Below the pieces are notes generated by a model, which was not told the origin of the DNA, searched no databases, and saw only the letters and a list, made by a program, of their open reading frames with translations. Of a stretch of 54,243 nt of DNA, positions 4,699 to 10,514 are shown piece by piece (within the stretch, counting starts at the first letter, position 1; each line of letters opens with the position of its first letter). Source of the DNA: Candidatus Peregrinibacteria bacterium (GTDB lineage Bacteria; Patescibacteriota; Gracilibacteria; UBA1369; 2-02-FULL-48-14); NCBI GenBank assembly GCA_018658105.1, contig JABHVW010000006.1, positions 1 to 54,243 of the forward strand, read 5' to 3'. The position numbers and the translations under genes were made by a program.

Positions 4699-4727
4699 TT
4701 GACAAAGCTGGTGCTAACTAATAAAAT
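4699..4727 (+). promoter_or_regulatory. Consensus sigma70-type promoter, leaderless
   Basis: A perfect TTGACA -35 box (4699-4704), a 17-bp spacer and a TAAAAT -10 box (4722-4727). Only 7 nt separate the -10 box from the ATG at 4735, so transcription should start at or next to the A of the start codon. This is one of the best-matching promoters in the window. Confidence 0.75.
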
Positions 4728-4734
4728 TTGTATT

Positions 4735-4830
4735 ATGAATACTGCAGTTAAAACTTATGTCAATTCTGCGCAAAGTGCTGAAAAAGCGCTTGTATTCGCT
4801 ATTATTATTTCTTTAATCATTCTATTTTAA
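4735..4830 (+). CDS. Small single-pass membrane peptide, 31 residues
   Basis: The ORF encodes 31 residues: a polar N-terminal half starting MNTAVKTYVNSAQSAEKA and a hydrophobic C-terminal half (LVFAIIISLIILF) that ends the protein. This is the pattern of a small tail-anchored or single-TM membrane peptide. The start is strongly supported because a consensus promoter sits exactly one leaderless distance upstream. It is the first gene before the ATP-grasp ligase cluster. I do not recognise a family. It could be an accessory membrane subunit, a peptide substrate of the ligases, or a leader peptide. Whether it is translated is unproven. Confidence 0.5.
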   Translation: MNTAVKTYVNSAQSAEKALVFAIIISLIILF

Positions 4831-4834
4831 GCTA

Positions 4835-4862
4835 GCTTTTGCACTTTAACTAAGGTAAAAGC
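4835..4862 (+). other. Hairpin between the small ORF and the ATP-grasp gene
   Basis: GCTTTTGC at 4835-4842 pairs with GTAAAAGC at 4855-4862 (one G-U pair), and CTT at 4844-4846 pairs with AAG at 4852-4854, with a single bulged A and a 5-nt loop. A run of seven T starts only at 4874, so it is not a classical terminator. It may be a partial terminator or an mRNA processing or stabilising element separating expression of the small ORF from the downstream genes. Confidence 0.4.
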
Positions 4863-4883
4863 GGTGAGAATAGTTTTTTTATT

Positions 4884-6581
4884 ATGATATCTGAAAATCT
4901 TCCATCAGCTGATTCTTTTGATCCAAGTGAGCCTATTGATTTTTCACTGGAGACTTCTGAAGTTGTTGAACTTGGGCCGAAAAATCCAAAATCACTGAGT
5001 GAGCTTGCGGAAAGCCTTGGGGCTGAGTGGGTGGTTGTAGCAACTGCTGTTGATGATGAAAATATTACGGGTATAAAAGGGCAAGCGGGAGCGGTTAATG
5101 GGATCGATGCATATGCTGTGAGGTTTCTACTCGCATGCGATGCAAAATCTGTTTTTTTGGTGCCAGATAGGTATTACGCTAAGGCGTTAGAGCTTGCGAA
5201 TCATTATGCTGAGACTGGTAGATCCACTTTTGACCCTGCAAATTTAGTTTCGGTAAATATCCTTGAGAATGAAGGTTTTACAGATGCTGTTGAAAGACAG
5301 CAAGCTACTTTGCTTAAAGAAATCAAAACTCGTACCGTTGGTGATGATGGTGATATGTCTGAAGTTATGTATCTGCCCTTTATTCAAACTGAACAAACTA
5401 AGAGAATTGAGGTGGCATGGGGTAGTGCGGATTATCAAAATCCTGAAGTTGTAGAAATGATGAATAATAAGCGTGATTTCGCGGCATTTTTAGTCAGGCA
5501 TAATATTCCTACTCCAGATACTATTGGTCATTACAACTTGTTTGCTCGAATTGTTGCTGGGGATGTGAAAAATAACAAAGGAGAGCCTTGGCATGAAGTG
5601 ATGATGAAGATTAATCGAGGTGCTTCGGGGTGTGGAGTTCTTCCTGCCTATATCACTCCTGAAACAGTTGATTTGTATTATAGGGTGTTTAATAAAGAAG
5701 TTTCTTCTTTTGAAGAGGCAATGTATGCATTGGCGGAAATTGATATTGTAGAAGGTCATGAATATTTTAAAATATTGCATTCTTCCTTTAAAGATTTATT
5801 CCAAGTGGAGGATGTTAATACAGGTGCAAAGGTTGTAGATAGAATGAAGTATGTATCTGAAAGGGGTGATGGTATTTGCTTACAGGCAATGGTTGAGAAT
5901 TTAGTTGAGTCTCCGGGCGTAGTGTTTTGGATTGGAAATACACTTGATGAATCTTACATATTAGGTTCTTCCGGGCAAATTCTTGCTAACGGAAAAGTTC
6001 ATATGGGGAATGAAGGACCTTTGGCAGCTTGGGCTGAATCTGAGCAAATGCGTACAATTATTCAAAATGTGATTAAGGCAATGTTTGATGAGGGGGTTCG
6101 TGGGCCAGCCGGTGTTGATCTGTTGATTTCATTGCGTGAAGCTGATTTTGAAGGCTTGGACATACCTTATGATGAAAAACATCTGATTCAGGTTGGCGAG
6201 GCAAATCTTAGAATTACGGGTCAGACTCATGCGGTGCTTTTTGCTGCAATGTCTAAGCTAGAAAGATGGTATTCAACAAATACTGAATATATGCATGAGA
6301 ATTATGAGGAGTTATCTGAAATATTAGCTTTATTTGAGAAGCTAGGGATAGAAGACGATACTTTGTCTGTTACTATTGTTAATCATGCTCTTGTTGGGAT
6401 TGAGAATAAATTGATGATGATTCTTGGCTTGACTAAGGCTCCTGATGAAGATGGTATGATTGAGATGTTTGATGACCGCTTTACACCAGATGAGATTTTT
6501 GATGGGGTTCGCGAGTGTATTTCTAGCTGTTTAAGAGTTCATCGTTTGAATAAGGAAATGCCTAAACTTATGGCTGCATAA
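4884..6581 (+). CDS. Pre-ATP-grasp/ATP-grasp ligase, PGM1 (peptide ligase)-like
   Basis: This 565-residue protein has an N-terminal pre-ATP-grasp alpha/beta part (about residues 35-190), then an ATP-grasp core. The core shows NKRDFAAFLVRHNIPTPDT (lid entry), the nucleotide-binding lysine K242 in MMKINRGASGCG, and a metal-binding end GEANLRITGQTHA with E439 and N441. The pattern 'E-x-NLR-x-x-G-x-THA' resembles PGM1-type amidoligases of peptide-natural-product pathways, which join an acyl-phosphate to an amine. A helical C-terminal tail of about 110 residues follows. It lies directly before the PKD-7TM and ATP-grasp/peptidase genes, suggesting joint peptide tagging or cell-wall modification. 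The substrate is unknown. PGM1 assignment is by motif resemblance only. Confidence 0.7.
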   Translation: MISENLPSADSFDPSEPIDFSLETSEVVELGPKNPKSLSELAESLGAEWVVVATAVDDENITGIKGQAGAVNGIDAYAVRFLLACDAKSVFLVPDRYYAKALELANHYAETGRSTFDPANLVSVNILENEGFTDAVERQQATLLKEIKTRTVGDDGDMSEVMYLPFIQTEQTKRIEVAWGSADYQNPEVVEMMNNKRDFAAFLVRHNIPTPDTIGHYNLFARIVAGDVKNNKGEPWHEVMMKINRGASGCGVLPAYITPETVDLYYRVFNKEVSSFEEAMYALAEIDIVEGHEYFKILHSSFKDLFQVEDVNTGAKVVDRMKYVSERGDGICLQAMVENLVESPGVVFWIGNTLDESYILGSSGQILANGKVHMGNEGPLAAWAESEQMRTIIQNVIKAMFDEGVRGPAGVDLLISLREADFEGLDIPYDEKHLIQVGEANLRITGQTHAVLFAAMSKLERWYSTNTEYMHENYEELSEILALFEKLGIEDDTLSVTIVNHALVGIENKLMMILGLTKAPDEDGMIEMFDDRFTPDEIFDGVRECISSCLRVHRLNKEMPKLMAA

Positions 6582-6609
6582 GTGTTGAAAAATATGATAT
6601 GATTTCGGC

Positions 6610-8133
6610 ATGCTGAAACGTATTATTTCCGCGCTGATTCTCTCCTTGTTTATCTCGGCTCAAACACTGGCTTTTTCTTTGCCTTTGCCAACTGCAGACG
6701 AAGAAGTGGTTTTAGCAGCGCAGGAGCCGATTAGGGTTTCGATTGATGCAAAATCTAGTTCAGAGCTTGGTAAGAGTTTAATTTTTGACGCCTCAGATTC
6801 TGTTTCTGTTGCAGCAGATGCTGAGTTAAGTTATGAATGGTTTTTTGGGGATGGAAATAGGCAGCAAGGAGTTGAGGTGGTGCATTCTTATGCGGAATCT
6901 GGTGAATATGAGGTGACATTGGTGGTGAGGGATAATTTTGAAAATCAAGTTACGAAAATTCATGATCTTTTCATTTACGAGAGCTCATTTGTTTTGATTA
7001 GTGATGTTGAGTCTAAAAAGAATCGAATCACCTCTTTTACTGAGTCGGCTCGTGAAGAAAATGTTTTTGTGAGTTTGATTACAAGTTATACTTCGCAGTC
7101 TGAATTTTTGGCTGAGGAGGACTTGAAGCAAGTTATTGCGGAAAATATTTCAGATATAAATTCTAGTAATTTAGTTGTTATTTGGACGAAGGGTAGTAGC
7201 GGTTTAACTGTTCTTTCTCAAATACAACAACTTTTAACTAATAAGAATTTCTTTGCCGATAAATCTATAGTTTTCATTTCAGATGAGCATTTTGGCTCGC
7301 TAAGTAATATTGCACGTGGTGTATATAAAAGTATTTCTCCATATCAAATTATTCTAACGAGGCCCGAGGCTGTTTCTGCACTTTTGGAGGTCTCTACACC
7401 ATTTGAGTTTTTAGATTTGCTGGATGCTAGAGGTGTTCAATCTGAGCTTATAGATTCAAATTTAAGTATAGCTCCGTGGAATTTAATGTCTCATTTTGTG
7501 AATTTAATGATTGAAAGGGGTGTGCCAACAAATACTTTGCGACTGATTTTGATGCTTCCAATAATTGTGACTATTGTTGCATTTATGAAGCAGGTTGTTG
7601 GTTTGGCCACTCTTGGGGTTTATACACCATCAATTCTGGCACTTTCATTTATAGCCCTAGATCTCTCATACGGTTTATTATTTCTGTTCGCGATTTTATT
7701 TATGGGTACGATTTCAAGGCTTTTCTTGAGGAGGTACAGGCTTTTGTACATTCCGCGTATGGCAATTGTGCTTACTTTTGTAAGTTTAACAATTCTCTTT
7801 TTGATGTTTTTGGGCGCCATTTTCAATATCTCAAATATTGTAAGCATTTCGGTTTTCCCAATGTTGATTATGAGCACCATGGTTGAAAAATTTGTTAGCA
7901 TTCAAAGTGGTAAAGGTTTACGTAAAGCTCTAACGCTTGTTGGTGAAGCCGTTTTGGTTGCAATTATTTGTTTCTTTGTGGCTGAGTGGGGCTTCTTGAA
8001 AGTTTTCGTTCTGGGGCATCCAGAAGTTATTTTCTTATTCCTTTTGGCGAATATTGCACTTGCAAGGTTTAGTGGTTTAAGACTTTTGGAGTATGTAAGA
8101 TTTAGAGAAATTATTCGTCACGCAGAAGAATGA
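6610..8133 (+). CDS. PKD-domain 7TM membrane protein of the ATP-grasp-associated (7TM_transglut) family
   Basis: This 507-residue protein has a signal peptide or first TM (residues 1-24), a PKD domain (about 38-125, with WFFGDG and HSYAESGEYEVTL), an extracytoplasmic alpha/beta stretch (130-300), then about seven membrane segments from residue 308 to 495. The membrane part matches my memory of the 7TM domain found next to alpha-L-glutamate-ligase-like ATP-grasp genes in Proteobacteria (LMLPIIVTIVAFM, PRMAIVLTF, GLRLLEYVRFREI). In those systems the outer domain is an inactive transglutaminase; here a PKD domain stands in that place. Its stop overlaps the next ATG by 4 bp, implying coupled translation. 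It probably anchors or senses at the membrane for the ligase-peptidase. Confidence 0.75.
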   Translation: MLKRIISALILSLFISAQTLAFSLPLPTADEEVVLAAQEPIRVSIDAKSSSELGKSLIFDASDSVSVAADAELSYEWFFGDGNRQQGVEVVHSYAESGEYEVTLVVRDNFENQVTKIHDLFIYESSFVLISDVESKKNRITSFTESAREENVFVSLITSYTSQSEFLAEEDLKQVIAENISDINSSNLVVIWTKGSSGLTVLSQIQQLLTNKNFFADKSIVFISDEHFGSLSNIARGVYKSISPYQIILTRPEAVSALLEVSTPFEFLDLLDARGVQSELIDSNLSIAPWNLMSHFVNLMIERGVPTNTLRLILMLPIIVTIVAFMKQVVGLATLGVYTPSILALSFIALDLSYGLLFLFAILFMGTISRLFLRRYRLLYIPRMAIVLTFVSLTILFLMFLGAIFNISNIVSISVFPMLIMSTMVEKFVSIQSGKGLRKALTLVGEAVLVAIICFFVAEWGFLKVFVLGHPEVIFLFLLANIALARFSGLRLLEYVRFREIIRHAEE

Positions 8134-10514
8134 TTCCATTTTTAAAACACCACGGAATTTTAGGTATCAATGCGAGGAATCTCCTCTATATTCGCCCCTA
8201 TAATAAAAAGAAAGAAATTCGTTTTGCTGATGATAAGTTGAAGTCTAAGCAGTTTTTGTCTGCACGTGGAATTCCTGTGCCAAAATTATTTGCTGTAATT
8301 AGGAATCAAGCAGATTTAGAAAAATTTGATTTTAATTCTTTGCCTTCAAATTTTGTATTGAAGCCAAATCTTGGTTATGGAGGTGAAGGTATTTTGCCAA
8401 TTGTTGGTAGAAAAGATGGAATGTATGAACATGCAAATGGTAGTTTTTTGACTCAAGATGAATTATCGGAACATATTAGTGATATTTTGGAGGGTAGATT
8501 TAGTTTGTCTGGTGTGATGGATACTGCATTTTTTGAGCAAAGAATAATTTGTGATGACTCGATTGCTAAGTTTTCTTATAAGGGGCTGCCAGATATTAGG
8601 ATTGTTGTTCATAATTTAATCCCTGTTATGGCGATGCTTAGGCTGCCAACTAAGGAGTCTGATGGTAAGGCAAATCTTCATCAGGGGGCTTTGGGTGTTG
8701 GAATAGATATTGCGAATGGCACGACGACTCATATGGTTTATAAGGGGAAAATTATTGATGAGATTCCTGGTTTAGGTAGTATTAAAGGACTGAAAATTCC
8801 ACATTGGGATGAAATGCTTCTTACGGCGGCTAAGCTGCAGTTTATAACCAACTTGGGTTATTTGGCTGCTGACTTGGTTTTAGATAGGAATATTGGTCCT
8901 GTACTTTTAGAAATTAATGCTAGGGCAGGTTTGGCTGTTCAAATTGCTAACTTGGCGCCTTTGAGAAAGAGGCTAGAGAGGATTGAGGGTGTGCAGGTTA
9001 AAACGCCTGAGAAAGGTGTTAGAATCGCTCAGGATATGTTTGGGAATCGTATTGAGAAAGATGTGAAAAAGGTAAGTGGTAAGGAGGTGATTGGTAGTCA
9101 TGAAAAAGTTAGGATTTTGGGTGGCGATGAAGTGCGAATGGTTTGGGCGTCAATTAATCCTTTGTTGGAGTCGACTCTGATTGATTCGACTTTGGCTGAA
9201 TCTTTAAATTTGAAGTCTGAAGATGAAGAAAGTGAATCGGTTAAATTAAAATTTTCACTTTTAGATTCGCGTATCCAAACTCTAGCTCAAACTGAAGATC
9301 TTTCGGGTAAGTCATATGATTTGGTGATTGGCCGTAGAGATTTAAATGATTTTTTGATTGATCCAAGTAAAGGAAAGCCTACTCCTTCAAAGCTTCCACA
9401 TCTAAAAAAGACTGGCGAGGTTATGGCACCTACTGGGCCGAATTTTACTCAATTTGATAAATCAATTATTTCTATTGATAGACAGTTGAAACTTCTTTAT
9501 CACTTGAAGCCTGTTAATTTAGTGGCTGAAAAGGAGACTTTCTTAGCTGACCCGAGTTATAATCCTCAATTCATTTATCCTGACTTGCAATTTGATGCAT
9601 TTCATTTAAAAGAAAAGCTTCGCAAAATGAAACATGAGTTGGATGACTCATCACTCTCAAAATTGTTTCTTGCTAAATTAGCTGAGCTCGAAAAAAAGAT
9701 TCTTGTATTAGAGGGTATTGGTGCAGATGATTTCACTGACAGAAGTGCAGCTTTATATTCTAAGCCAGATGACTATCTTAAAACACAGGCACAATTGATG
9801 TTGGACAGTAGACCTAAAAATCTACCAGAGACTGTTCATGAAAAAGTTTTTTCTACTGAAGAGGCGATCTTGGAGTTTGAACAGGCTTTGAAATCTTACG
9901 GTTTGGATTCATGGCATATCAAAATTAAAGAGAGCATGGTGACTGATTGTTTAGCAGGGAAGAGTAATGTTTTGTTTTTGCGTAAGGGTGCTACATTTAC
10001 TGAGTCTCGCTTAAGAATGCTAGTTGCTCATGAGATTGAAACTCATATTCTTACTGCTGAAAATGGCAAACATCAACCGTATCAGCTTTTCAATCGTGGT
10101 TTTGCTGACTATCTTGAGATTCAAGAGGGTTTGGCTGTTTGGAATCAAGAGCAGGTTATGATGAATGAAGCTTATAAAAGTTATAGGAGTTCAATGTTGG
10201 TTTTTGTTGTGGACTTTGGAATTAAACATGGCTTTGCAGAAACTTTTGATTATTGTTTGAAGCTTGGTATGGATACAGAAGCGGCATTTAGAACGACTGT
10301 TAAAGTTAAGCGTGGCCTTGAAGACACTTCTAAGCCTGGCGCATTCACTAAAGATTTAATTTACTTTTCAGGGTACTTGCAGGTCAGGGATTACATCTCA
10401 AAAGGTGGCAGCCTGAAAGACCTCTATTATGGAAAATATCATTTGAGAGATTTAGAAATGATTAAGAGCTTACCGCACTTGCGGGAGCCGGCAATTTTGC
10501 CTCACTTTGTTTGA
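8130..10514 (+). CDS. Three-part fusion: ATP-grasp ligase, degenerate retropepsin-like domain, DUF1704 (QEGLA) metallopeptidase
   Basis: This 794-residue cytoplasmic protein has three parts. Residues 1-295 are an alpha-L-glutamate-ligase-like ATP-grasp domain (GILGINARNLLYIRPYN, ADDKLKSK, MAMLRLPTKESDGKANLHQG, metal-binding LEINARAG around E261). Residues 300-450 resemble the retropepsin-like protease found beside such ligases (DLVIGRRDLNDFLIDPSKG), but the catalytic DTG position reads N343-P-L, so this part is probably dead. Residues 465-794 are a DUF1704/tyrosine-carboxypeptidase-type metallopeptidase with zinc motif H634-EIET-H639 and QEGLA at 665-669. One polypeptide can thus both add and remove amino-acid tags. 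It overlaps the 7TM gene by 4 bp, and its 3' end overlaps the convergent phosphatase gene by 53 bp. Confidence 0.8.
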   Translation: MIPFLKHHGILGINARNLLYIRPYNKKKEIRFADDKLKSKQFLSARGIPVPKLFAVIRNQADLEKFDFNSLPSNFVLKPNLGYGGEGILPIVGRKDGMYEHANGSFLTQDELSEHISDILEGRFSLSGVMDTAFFEQRIICDDSIAKFSYKGLPDIRIVVHNLIPVMAMLRLPTKESDGKANLHQGALGVGIDIANGTTTHMVYKGKIIDEIPGLGSIKGLKIPHWDEMLLTAAKLQFITNLGYLAADLVLDRNIGPVLLEINARAGLAVQIANLAPLRKRLERIEGVQVKTPEKGVRIAQDMFGNRIEKDVKKVSGKEVIGSHEKVRILGGDEVRMVWASINPLLESTLIDSTLAESLNLKSEDEESESVKLKFSLLDSRIQTLAQTEDLSGKSYDLVIGRRDLNDFLIDPSKGKPTPSKLPHLKKTGEVMAPTGPNFTQFDKSIISIDRQLKLLYHLKPVNLVAEKETFLADPSYNPQFIYPDLQFDAFHLKEKLRKMKHELDDSSLSKLFLAKLAELEKKILVLEGIGADDFTDRSAALYSKPDDYLKTQAQLMLDSRPKNLPETVHEKVFSTEEAILEFEQALKSYGLDSWHIKIKESMVTDCLAGKSNVLFLRKGATFTESRLRMLVAHEIETHILTAENGKHQPYQLFNRGFADYLEIQEGLAVWNQEQVMMNEAYKSYRSSMLVFVVDFGIKHGFAETFDYCLKLGMDTEAAFRTTVKVKRGLEDTSKPGAFTKDLIYFSGYLQVRDYISKGGSLKDLYYGKYHLRDLEMIKSLPHLREPAILPHFV

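Follow-up and report, generated by a model that had tools for sequence, protein, structure and literature searches.

Genes at the locus and the conserved two-gene unit

The window, a 54,243-nucleotide stretch of contig JABHVW010000006.1, belongs to the patescibacterial genome (~1.12 Mb) of a Candidatus Peregrinibacteria bacterium and contains four consecutive open reading frames (ORFs), all on the plus strand, at positions 4735-4830, 4884-6581, 6610-8133 and 8130-10514. The first encodes a 31-residue peptide and the others, referred to here as genes 1, 2 and 3, encode a putative ligase, a membrane protein with seven transmembrane helices (7TM) and a three-part fusion enzyme. The initial annotation of this DNA, made from its letters alone, located all four ORFs correctly and read them as one membrane-linked system for the ligation and removal of amino acids, akin to the known association of a 7TM protein with a glutamate-ligase-like ATP-grasp enzyme and a protease. 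The kinship is supported by the comparisons reported below and the membership of all four genes is not, as the conserved unit consists of genes 2 and 3 only (6610-10514).

The conservation of the genes was evaluated in 99 related genomes, and their wider distribution in 380 patescibacterial genomes. A homolog of gene 3 was found in 68 of the 99 relatives; the names attached to gene 3 relatives are mostly Candidatus Peregrinibacteria, Peribacteria and Gracilibacteria. Homologs of genes 2 and 3 were both detected in ~60 of the 99, nearly always adjacent and on the same strand, with the gene 2 homolog directly 5' of gene 3 in nearly all genomes having both. The pair resides in a syntenic block flanked on one side, on the minus strand, by genes for CysS, YGGT and an fn3 surface protein, and on the other by genes for a SpoIIE phosphatase and an MFS-HEAT protein. 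In the window, 1,984 bp separate the fn3 gene from gene 2; the corresponding distance is 121 bp in the sister genus and mostly 87-175 bp elsewhere, and gene 1 was found beside genes 2 and 3 in none of the 98 other related genomes. Since gene 1 occupies this site in the genome of the window only and the gap is short in relatives, the claim of a four-gene system fails and a two-gene cassette stands. The features of the cassette are as follows, with the basis of each assignment in parentheses.

6610-8133, plus strand: gene 2, RloB-type 7TM membrane protein of 507 residues with PKD and alpha/beta outer domains (Pfam, RloB model, conservation)
6724-6951, plus strand: PKD domain of gene 2, residues 39-114 (Pfam; Foldseek match to collagenase PKD domains)
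6955-7509, plus strand: alpha/beta outer domain of gene 2, residues ~116-300 (secondary structure in the model; kept in long homologs)
7531-8112, plus strand: 7TM domain of gene 2 (PF14402; profile-profile match to RloB)
8125-8130, plus strand: GAA GAA codons for the C-terminal Glu-Glu of gene 2, a candidate acceptor or substrate predicted to be cytoplasmic (sequence; conservation of the terminal -EE)
8130-10514, plus strand: gene 3, fusion of ATP-grasp ligase, retropepsin-like domain and MATCAP domain, 794 residues (TIGR02291, PF08014, homologs in relatives)
8175-8987, plus strand: ATP-grasp domain of gene 3, residues 16-286, RloC/TIGR02291 type (Pfam PF14397, E 1.2e-68; active-site residues kept)
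9060-9413, plus strand: retropepsin-like domain of gene 3, residues 311-428, with DTGA changed to NPLL (hhalign to DTG-bearing domains; motif table)
9450-10511, plus strand: MATCAP metallocarboxypeptidase domain of gene 3, residues 441-794 (PF08014, E 6.4e-53)
10029-10046 and 10122-10136, plus strand: HEIETH and QEGLA motifs of the MATCAP domain (sequence)

The assignment of gene 2 as a PKD-7TM protein was confirmed by matches to PKD_4 (E 4.4e-15) and 7TM_transglut (PF14402, E 2.3e-32). Both the RloB model NF052267 (E 1.4e-21) and the profile-profile comparison by hhalign with RloB of Legionella and Aeromonas (E 3e-23) covered the 7TM part only. The N-terminus is hydrophobic and was read as a signal peptide, and the AlphaFold model had a predicted local distance difference test score of 83. 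A transglutaminase domain was not found in gene 2, with PKD and 7TM alone above the Pfam cut-off; the alpha/beta domain matched no Pfam family above that cut-off, and PKD was the only convincing match in the Foldseek search. The view that a PKD domain replaces the transglutaminase outer domain is thus correct, although it is no peculiarity of the window, the replacement being common in the phylum. The C-terminus below the seventh helix is predicted to be cytoplasmic, a placement derived from the seven predicted helices and the positive loops at residues ~372-383, 430-440 and 488-504.

The three parts ascribed to gene 3, an ATP-grasp domain, a degenerate retropepsin and a metallopeptidase, were each borne out by profile comparisons. 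The match to the RloC-type ATP-grasp family TIGR02291 had an E value of 9.6e-93 and a score of 310.6 bits, just below the curated 314.2. Residues D248, E261 and N263 were invariant in 20 sequences, and the domain superposed on ArgX and RimK structures with Z about 16 and on Ddl as well. The middle domain matched the domain that follows ATP-grasp in other Patescibacteria (hhalign, E 1.1e-26), the DTGA-bearing homologs of which match PF05618 in seven of seven cases and also the RloA structures 9g58 and 9g59. With NPLL at the site of the aspartic motif, the retropepsin domain of gene 3 is predicted from its sequence to be inactive. A retropepsin was missing from the matches of VIA-align to the complete gene 3 model; this does not count against the domain, the assignment of which was decided by profiles. 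The MATCAP domain superposed on the human MATCAP structure 7z5g with Z 28 and a root-mean-square deviation of 2.4, and its metal site (HExxxH plus EG) is kept in nearly all fused homologs. The score against the QEGLA family TIGR02421 was 188.4 bits, below the curated cut-off of 338.65. Gene 3 and its homologs retain the conserved catalytic residues of both the ATP-grasp and the MATCAP domain.

Metallopeptidase, aspartic site and terminal Glu-Glu

Among the 380 patescibacterial genomes, PF14402 was present in 110, MATCAP in 86 and both in 68, a co-occurrence of PF14402 and PF08014 with Fisher p values of 3e-29 overall and 5e-14 outside the class of the window, neither corrected for phylogeny. 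RloB, which with RloC was characterised genetically in 2025, has been reported as 96% proteobacterial (PMC12239564); the RloB 7TM domain in the 110 genomes comes with a substrate candidate that can be tested. The parts of the cassette are separate neighbouring genes in other lineages (L114-L117, L125, L128, L129) and fused in the window, indicating a functional link between the ligase, retropepsin-like and MATCAP parts.

The state of the aspartic site follows the presence of MATCAP. The D[TS]G motif was lost in 102 of 113 MATCAP-fused proteins and, where retained, lacks the subsequent alanine that retropepsins typically have; DTG was kept in all 25 cassettes with no MATCAP nearby. The terminus of the 7TM protein follows the same division, ending in -EE or -EEE in 98 of 104 MATCAP-fused cassettes (85 of 90 after removal of duplicates) and in -EE in none of the 24 cassettes with no MATCAP nearby. 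Where MATCAP is a separate adjacent gene, four cassettes keep DTGA and have no -EE, while the motif is altered to NTG in two and to NTS in one; EEEE and EEE are the termini of the 7TM proteins in the two such cassettes where DTG is changed and the tail could be read. The -EE terminus was present in 19 of 19 aligned gene 2 homologs. In the gene 2 homologs of MATCAP-fused cassettes, the last two residues had entropies of 0.26 and 0.44 bits and the preceding six 2.6-3.2 bits. For comparison, 5 of 438 other ORFs in the same loci end in EE. It is inferred from this division that a metallocarboxypeptidase replaced the aspartic protease as the eraser of a glutamylation cycle.

A possible glutamate-tail writer and eraser at the membrane

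The cassette resembles the Pseudomonas rloABC operon, which encodes the retropepsin RloA, the inactive-transglutaminase 7TM protein RloB and the ATP-grasp protein RloC (PMC12239564). The 7TM family (PF14402), ATP-grasp family (TIGR02291), adjacency and gene order are the same, and a retropepsin element is present in both. The outer domain of RloB is an inactive transglutaminase, whereas gene 2 has PKD and alpha/beta domains instead. RloA is secreted and active, whereas the retropepsin of gene 3 is internal to the ligase protein, cytoplasmic and predicted to be inactive. The MATCAP domain of gene 3 is an addition, and the -EE tail of gene 2 is absent from RloB of Legionella and Aeromonas. Because the transglutaminase domain and a secreted active RloA, two features that define RloABC, are both missing, the cassette was not counted as a member of that system; it is probably a variant that works alike.

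The ATP-grasp glutamate ligase linked to a retropepsin, and the logic of writing and erasing a C-terminal Glu tail, are also found in RimK/RimB and the RimBK hybrid (PMC11957791). RimBK differs in carrying an active RimB domain with DTG at its N-terminus, whereas the inactive domain of gene 3 follows an ATP-grasp domain of a different family, and the cassette differs from RimK/RimB in having a membrane partner. The ribosomal protein bS6 was considered as a substrate and rejected as not plausible, the readable tails ending mostly in ...DPDIxL rather than Glu; in many of the bS6 loci compared (L261-L290) the protein is extended by a long stretch that closes with a conserved LDxKLxxIlxDPDIxL-type motif. 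With human MATCAP/TMCP1-2 (KIAA0895L/KIAA0895), gene 3 shares the fold, the HExxxH plus EG metal site and a KRG...DTS.PG.F.KD motif; it differs in the fusion to a ligase and in having a bacterial membrane-protein partner rather than tubulin. The QEGLA proteins of Proteobacteria (TIGR02421) have the peptidase domain and QEGLA motif in common with gene 3, and those on plasmids match only its peptidase part. The parts and the logic are therefore already known from Rlo, Rim and MATCAP, whereas the literature searched yielded no description of their combination, of the peptidase swap or of the Glu-Glu tail.

We infer, with a confidence approaching but not reaching an even chance, that genes 2 and 3 encode a membrane-tethered writer and eraser of a glutamate tail. 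The ATP-grasp domain of gene 3 would add glutamate by RimK-like chemistry, the likeliest acceptor being the gene-encoded C-terminal -Glu-Glu of gene 2 on the cytoplasmic side, and the MATCAP domain would trim the added glutamates back. The retropepsin domain between them, predicted to be inactive, probably would serve only in binding of the tail or stimulation of the ligase; its counterpart in RimB and RloA is the polyglutamate endopeptidase, and most patescibacterial relatives retain the catalytic motif. On the outer side, the PKD and alpha/beta domains of gene 2 presumably detect or bind an external factor, in which case the length of the tail would couple an envelope signal to the cytoplasm.

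Precedents for each step are available. RpsF is extended with Glu at its C-terminus by RimK, the acceptors of which end in Glu (...GDSEE in E. coli RpsF, ...DNADE in SBW25), and RimK is stimulated by RimB (PMC11957791). Judged by its letters, the -Glu-Glu of gene 2 is similar to this end of RpsF. Both RimB and RloA are retropepsins and cleave Glu chains with a length of about six to eight residues or more (PMC11957791, PMC12239564), and the loss of RloA is rescued by deletion of rloB or rloC (PMC12239564). With RimB as the only protease 4-5 Glu remain, and a further 'reset' protease has been postulated for short Glu tails (PMC7343187); carboxypeptidases of the MATCAP type are good candidates for it. 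The absence of a terminal Glu from the readable bS6 tails, and the failure to find an intact RloA/RimB-type protease gene in 59 relatives, also favour the tail of gene 2 as the target. Relatives of human MATCAP deglutamylate tubulin; C-terminal Tyr and Glu are taken off by these enzymes and polyglutamate is shortened, the latter and the Glu removal by TMCP1/2 (PMC10499314), an analogy that suggests a MATCAP-type metallocarboxypeptidase activity of gene 3 on an acidic C-terminal tail. Only slightly less likely than the tail writer and eraser itself is a wider reading, in which Patescibacteria would glutamylate a receptor-like membrane protein reversibly at its cytoplasmic C-terminus, a single polypeptide acting as both ligase and metallo-deglutamylase. 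This cycle would be a bacterial counterpart of tubulin-tail modification in which MATCAP is the 'reset' eraser of the Rim models and a swap from aspartic to metallopeptidase can be traced. If true, polyglutamate removal would become a function of bacterial MATCAP domains, next to the tubulin modification performed by their relatives in humans, and C-terminal polyglutamylation would have a target other than RpsF.

Several observations weigh against a glutamate-tail writer and eraser. The link between MATCAP, DTG and EE rests on about three independent lineages, the MATCAP fusion changing twice in the tree of the ATP-grasp domain and the lineage with separate genes being a third case. A test with independent pairs agreed in direction (site loss and -EE in 3.4 of 4 pairs, none opposite), the pairs being too few for significance. 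In one clade (L167-L169, L256) MATCAP is fused and intact, and the 7TM protein is short, has no PKD domain and does not end in EE, and the 7TM proteins of L150 and L228 end in NE and VE. Cassettes with an intact retropepsin are without -EE with few exceptions; L145 has a Glu-rich tail together with an intact DTG. Furthermore, a Halobacterium fusion of 7TM and ATP-grasp domains leaves no free 7TM tail, which excludes the tail as a target common to all members of the family. To our knowledge, neither RloC proteins nor bacterial MATCAP proteins have a measured activity.

The main rival, which appears rather unlikely, is that the cassette makes, trims and moves a free glutamate-containing product: gene 3 would polymerise or cap Glu on a small molecule or peptide, MATCAP would set the length, the 7TM protein would export or flip the product, and -EE would be a docking or product-mimic motif holding the enzyme at the membrane. 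Consistent with such a product, RimK also makes free poly-alpha-glutamate, which RimB stimulates (PMC11957791), and RloA, which carries a signal peptide, cuts Glu chains from a length of 8 upwards, its loss being suppressed by loss of rloB or rloC (PMC12239564). The direct fusion of 7TM and ligase in Halobacterium, and the additional RimK-like ligases beside many cassettes that suggest a multi-step product, point the same way. An exported polymer would, however, be without a known eraser outside, because the retropepsin and MATCAP domains are cytoplasmic and an intact separate gene for an RloA/RimB-type protease (PF05618) had no match in 59 relatives. Nor does a free product alone explain the fixation of the last two residues rather than of a longer motif.

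That the peptide, a PGM1-like ligase, the PKD-7TM protein and the fusion protein form a four-part system tagging a peptide or the wall is improbable. The genes share a strand with small gaps, and a second ATP-grasp ligase is common beside other patescibacterial cassettes, so that gene 1 could stand in for it. The neighbourhood comparison nevertheless largely refutes this arrangement, since gene 1 is absent from other genomes and from the sister-genus site. A role of the small peptide as substrate might concern gene 1 at most.

Slightly less probable again is that the ligase acts on peptidoglycan or its precursors in the manner of a D-Ala-D-Ala-type ligase, with the peptidase trimming the stem peptide. 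The superposition of the ATP-grasp domain on Ddl as well as on RimK/ArgX would permit such a role, and Rlo mutants show cell-shape and beta-lactam phenotypes (PMC12239564). The sequence, however, is TIGR02291/RimK-like and not Ddl, MATCAP relatives act on acidic protein tails (PMC10499314), and no wall-synthesis genes lie directly beside the pair in the conserved neighbourhood. The cell wall, also suggested as a target initially, thus received no support in this analysis.

Finally, the explanation of -EE as a by-product of a Shine-Dalgarno sequence or start-codon overlap for gene 3, to which GAAGAATGA overlapping the gene 3 start in the window lends some appeal, was tested and rejected as very improbable, since -EE is independent of the distance to gene 3 (24 of 24 loci with the start of gene 3 >25 nt downstream, and 3 loci where no ATP-grasp gene follows the 7TM gene), occurs in only 2 of 29 overlapping cassettes without a fused MATCAP, and is encoded by all four GAA/GAG combinations with both Glu codons used freely.

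Gene 1, the small peptide and cassette variants

The two upstream features of the window are as follows.

4735-4830, plus strand: ORF for a 31-residue peptide with a single transmembrane segment, possible partner of gene 1 (upstream of gene 1; promoter at 4699-4727)
4884-6581, plus strand: gene 1, putative PGM1-like ATP-grasp protein of 565 residues (weak ATP-grasp support; gene absent from this site in relatives)

The peptide has one hydrophobic segment and no sequence homolog in the loci of relatives compared. Its presence was confirmed, and its proposed leaderless start is plausible because the promoter TTGACA-17-TAAAAT at 4699-4727 before the ORF is near consensus (11 of 12). For gene 1, ATP-grasp matches were sub-threshold (STM4014-family, E 0.004; ATP-grasp_3, E 0.05 in its one homolog), with the hallmark motifs KINRGASGCG and E-A-N-L-R present, and comparison of its profile with the PDB and with gene 3 gave no significant match. 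A Pfam match to coronavirus peptidase C30 (E 0.0015, below cut-off) was taken as chance. The hallmark motifs and the small peptide gene alongside are shared with the PGM1 peptide ligase of pheganomycin; gene 1 differs in having no profile match above threshold and no pheganomycin-type genes seen beside it, and in lying outside genes 2 and 3.

Gene 1 matches in a 240-genome sample of the phylum were confined to the genome of the window and its sister. The sole homolog, with 28% identity, lies elsewhere in the sister genome and adjoins an AstE/AspA-type gene; no relatives were found in GTDB contigs, plasmids, phages or IMG/VR. Gene 1 and the peptide are probably a separate genome-specific insertion outside the conserved system. 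Both gene 1 (window 4735-6581) and its homolog (L082, upstream of 8594) are preceded by a promoter-like TTGACA and a single-transmembrane ORF, of 31 and 29 residues respectively and unrelated in sequence. The peptide and the gene 1 ligase may form a small unit of their own (n = 2). In two relatives, the space 5' of gene 2 that holds gene 1 in the window is occupied instead by inserted, unrelated class IV aminotransferase genes, likewise next to the fn3 gene (L064:10980-12722, L070:12028-12936).

The proposal of two ligases does not hold for gene 1 at this locus and does hold elsewhere. Outside the class of the window, one or two further ligases, RimK-like or of other ATP-grasp types, often follow the cassette, as seen in 18 of 18 tested loci, which were picked because a gene of suitable size followed the cassette. 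A multi-ligase membrane system is accordingly right for the family, not for these particular genes. The extra downstream ATP-grasp genes were located in L114-L116, L124, L130, L133-L135, L142, L145, L148, L151, L152, L154-L156 and L158, with an additional ATP-grasp domain within the same protein in L132. In one locus a RimK-family ligase is directly 3' of the gene 3 homolog (L081:6483-7673), the 7TM gene lying elsewhere on that contig. An N-formylglutamate amidohydrolase-like gene follows the separate MATCAP gene of another cassette (L117:10104-11939). In an 854-residue ATP-grasp-retropepsin protein (L137:3218-5779), ~400 additional residues have no Pfam match at E 0.001. The Halobacterium fusion, of 7TM_transglut directly to an RloC-type ATP-grasp domain, is one unannotated ORF on a plasmid of Halobacterium sp. 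DL1 (L175:4164-5918) with transposase genes upstream.

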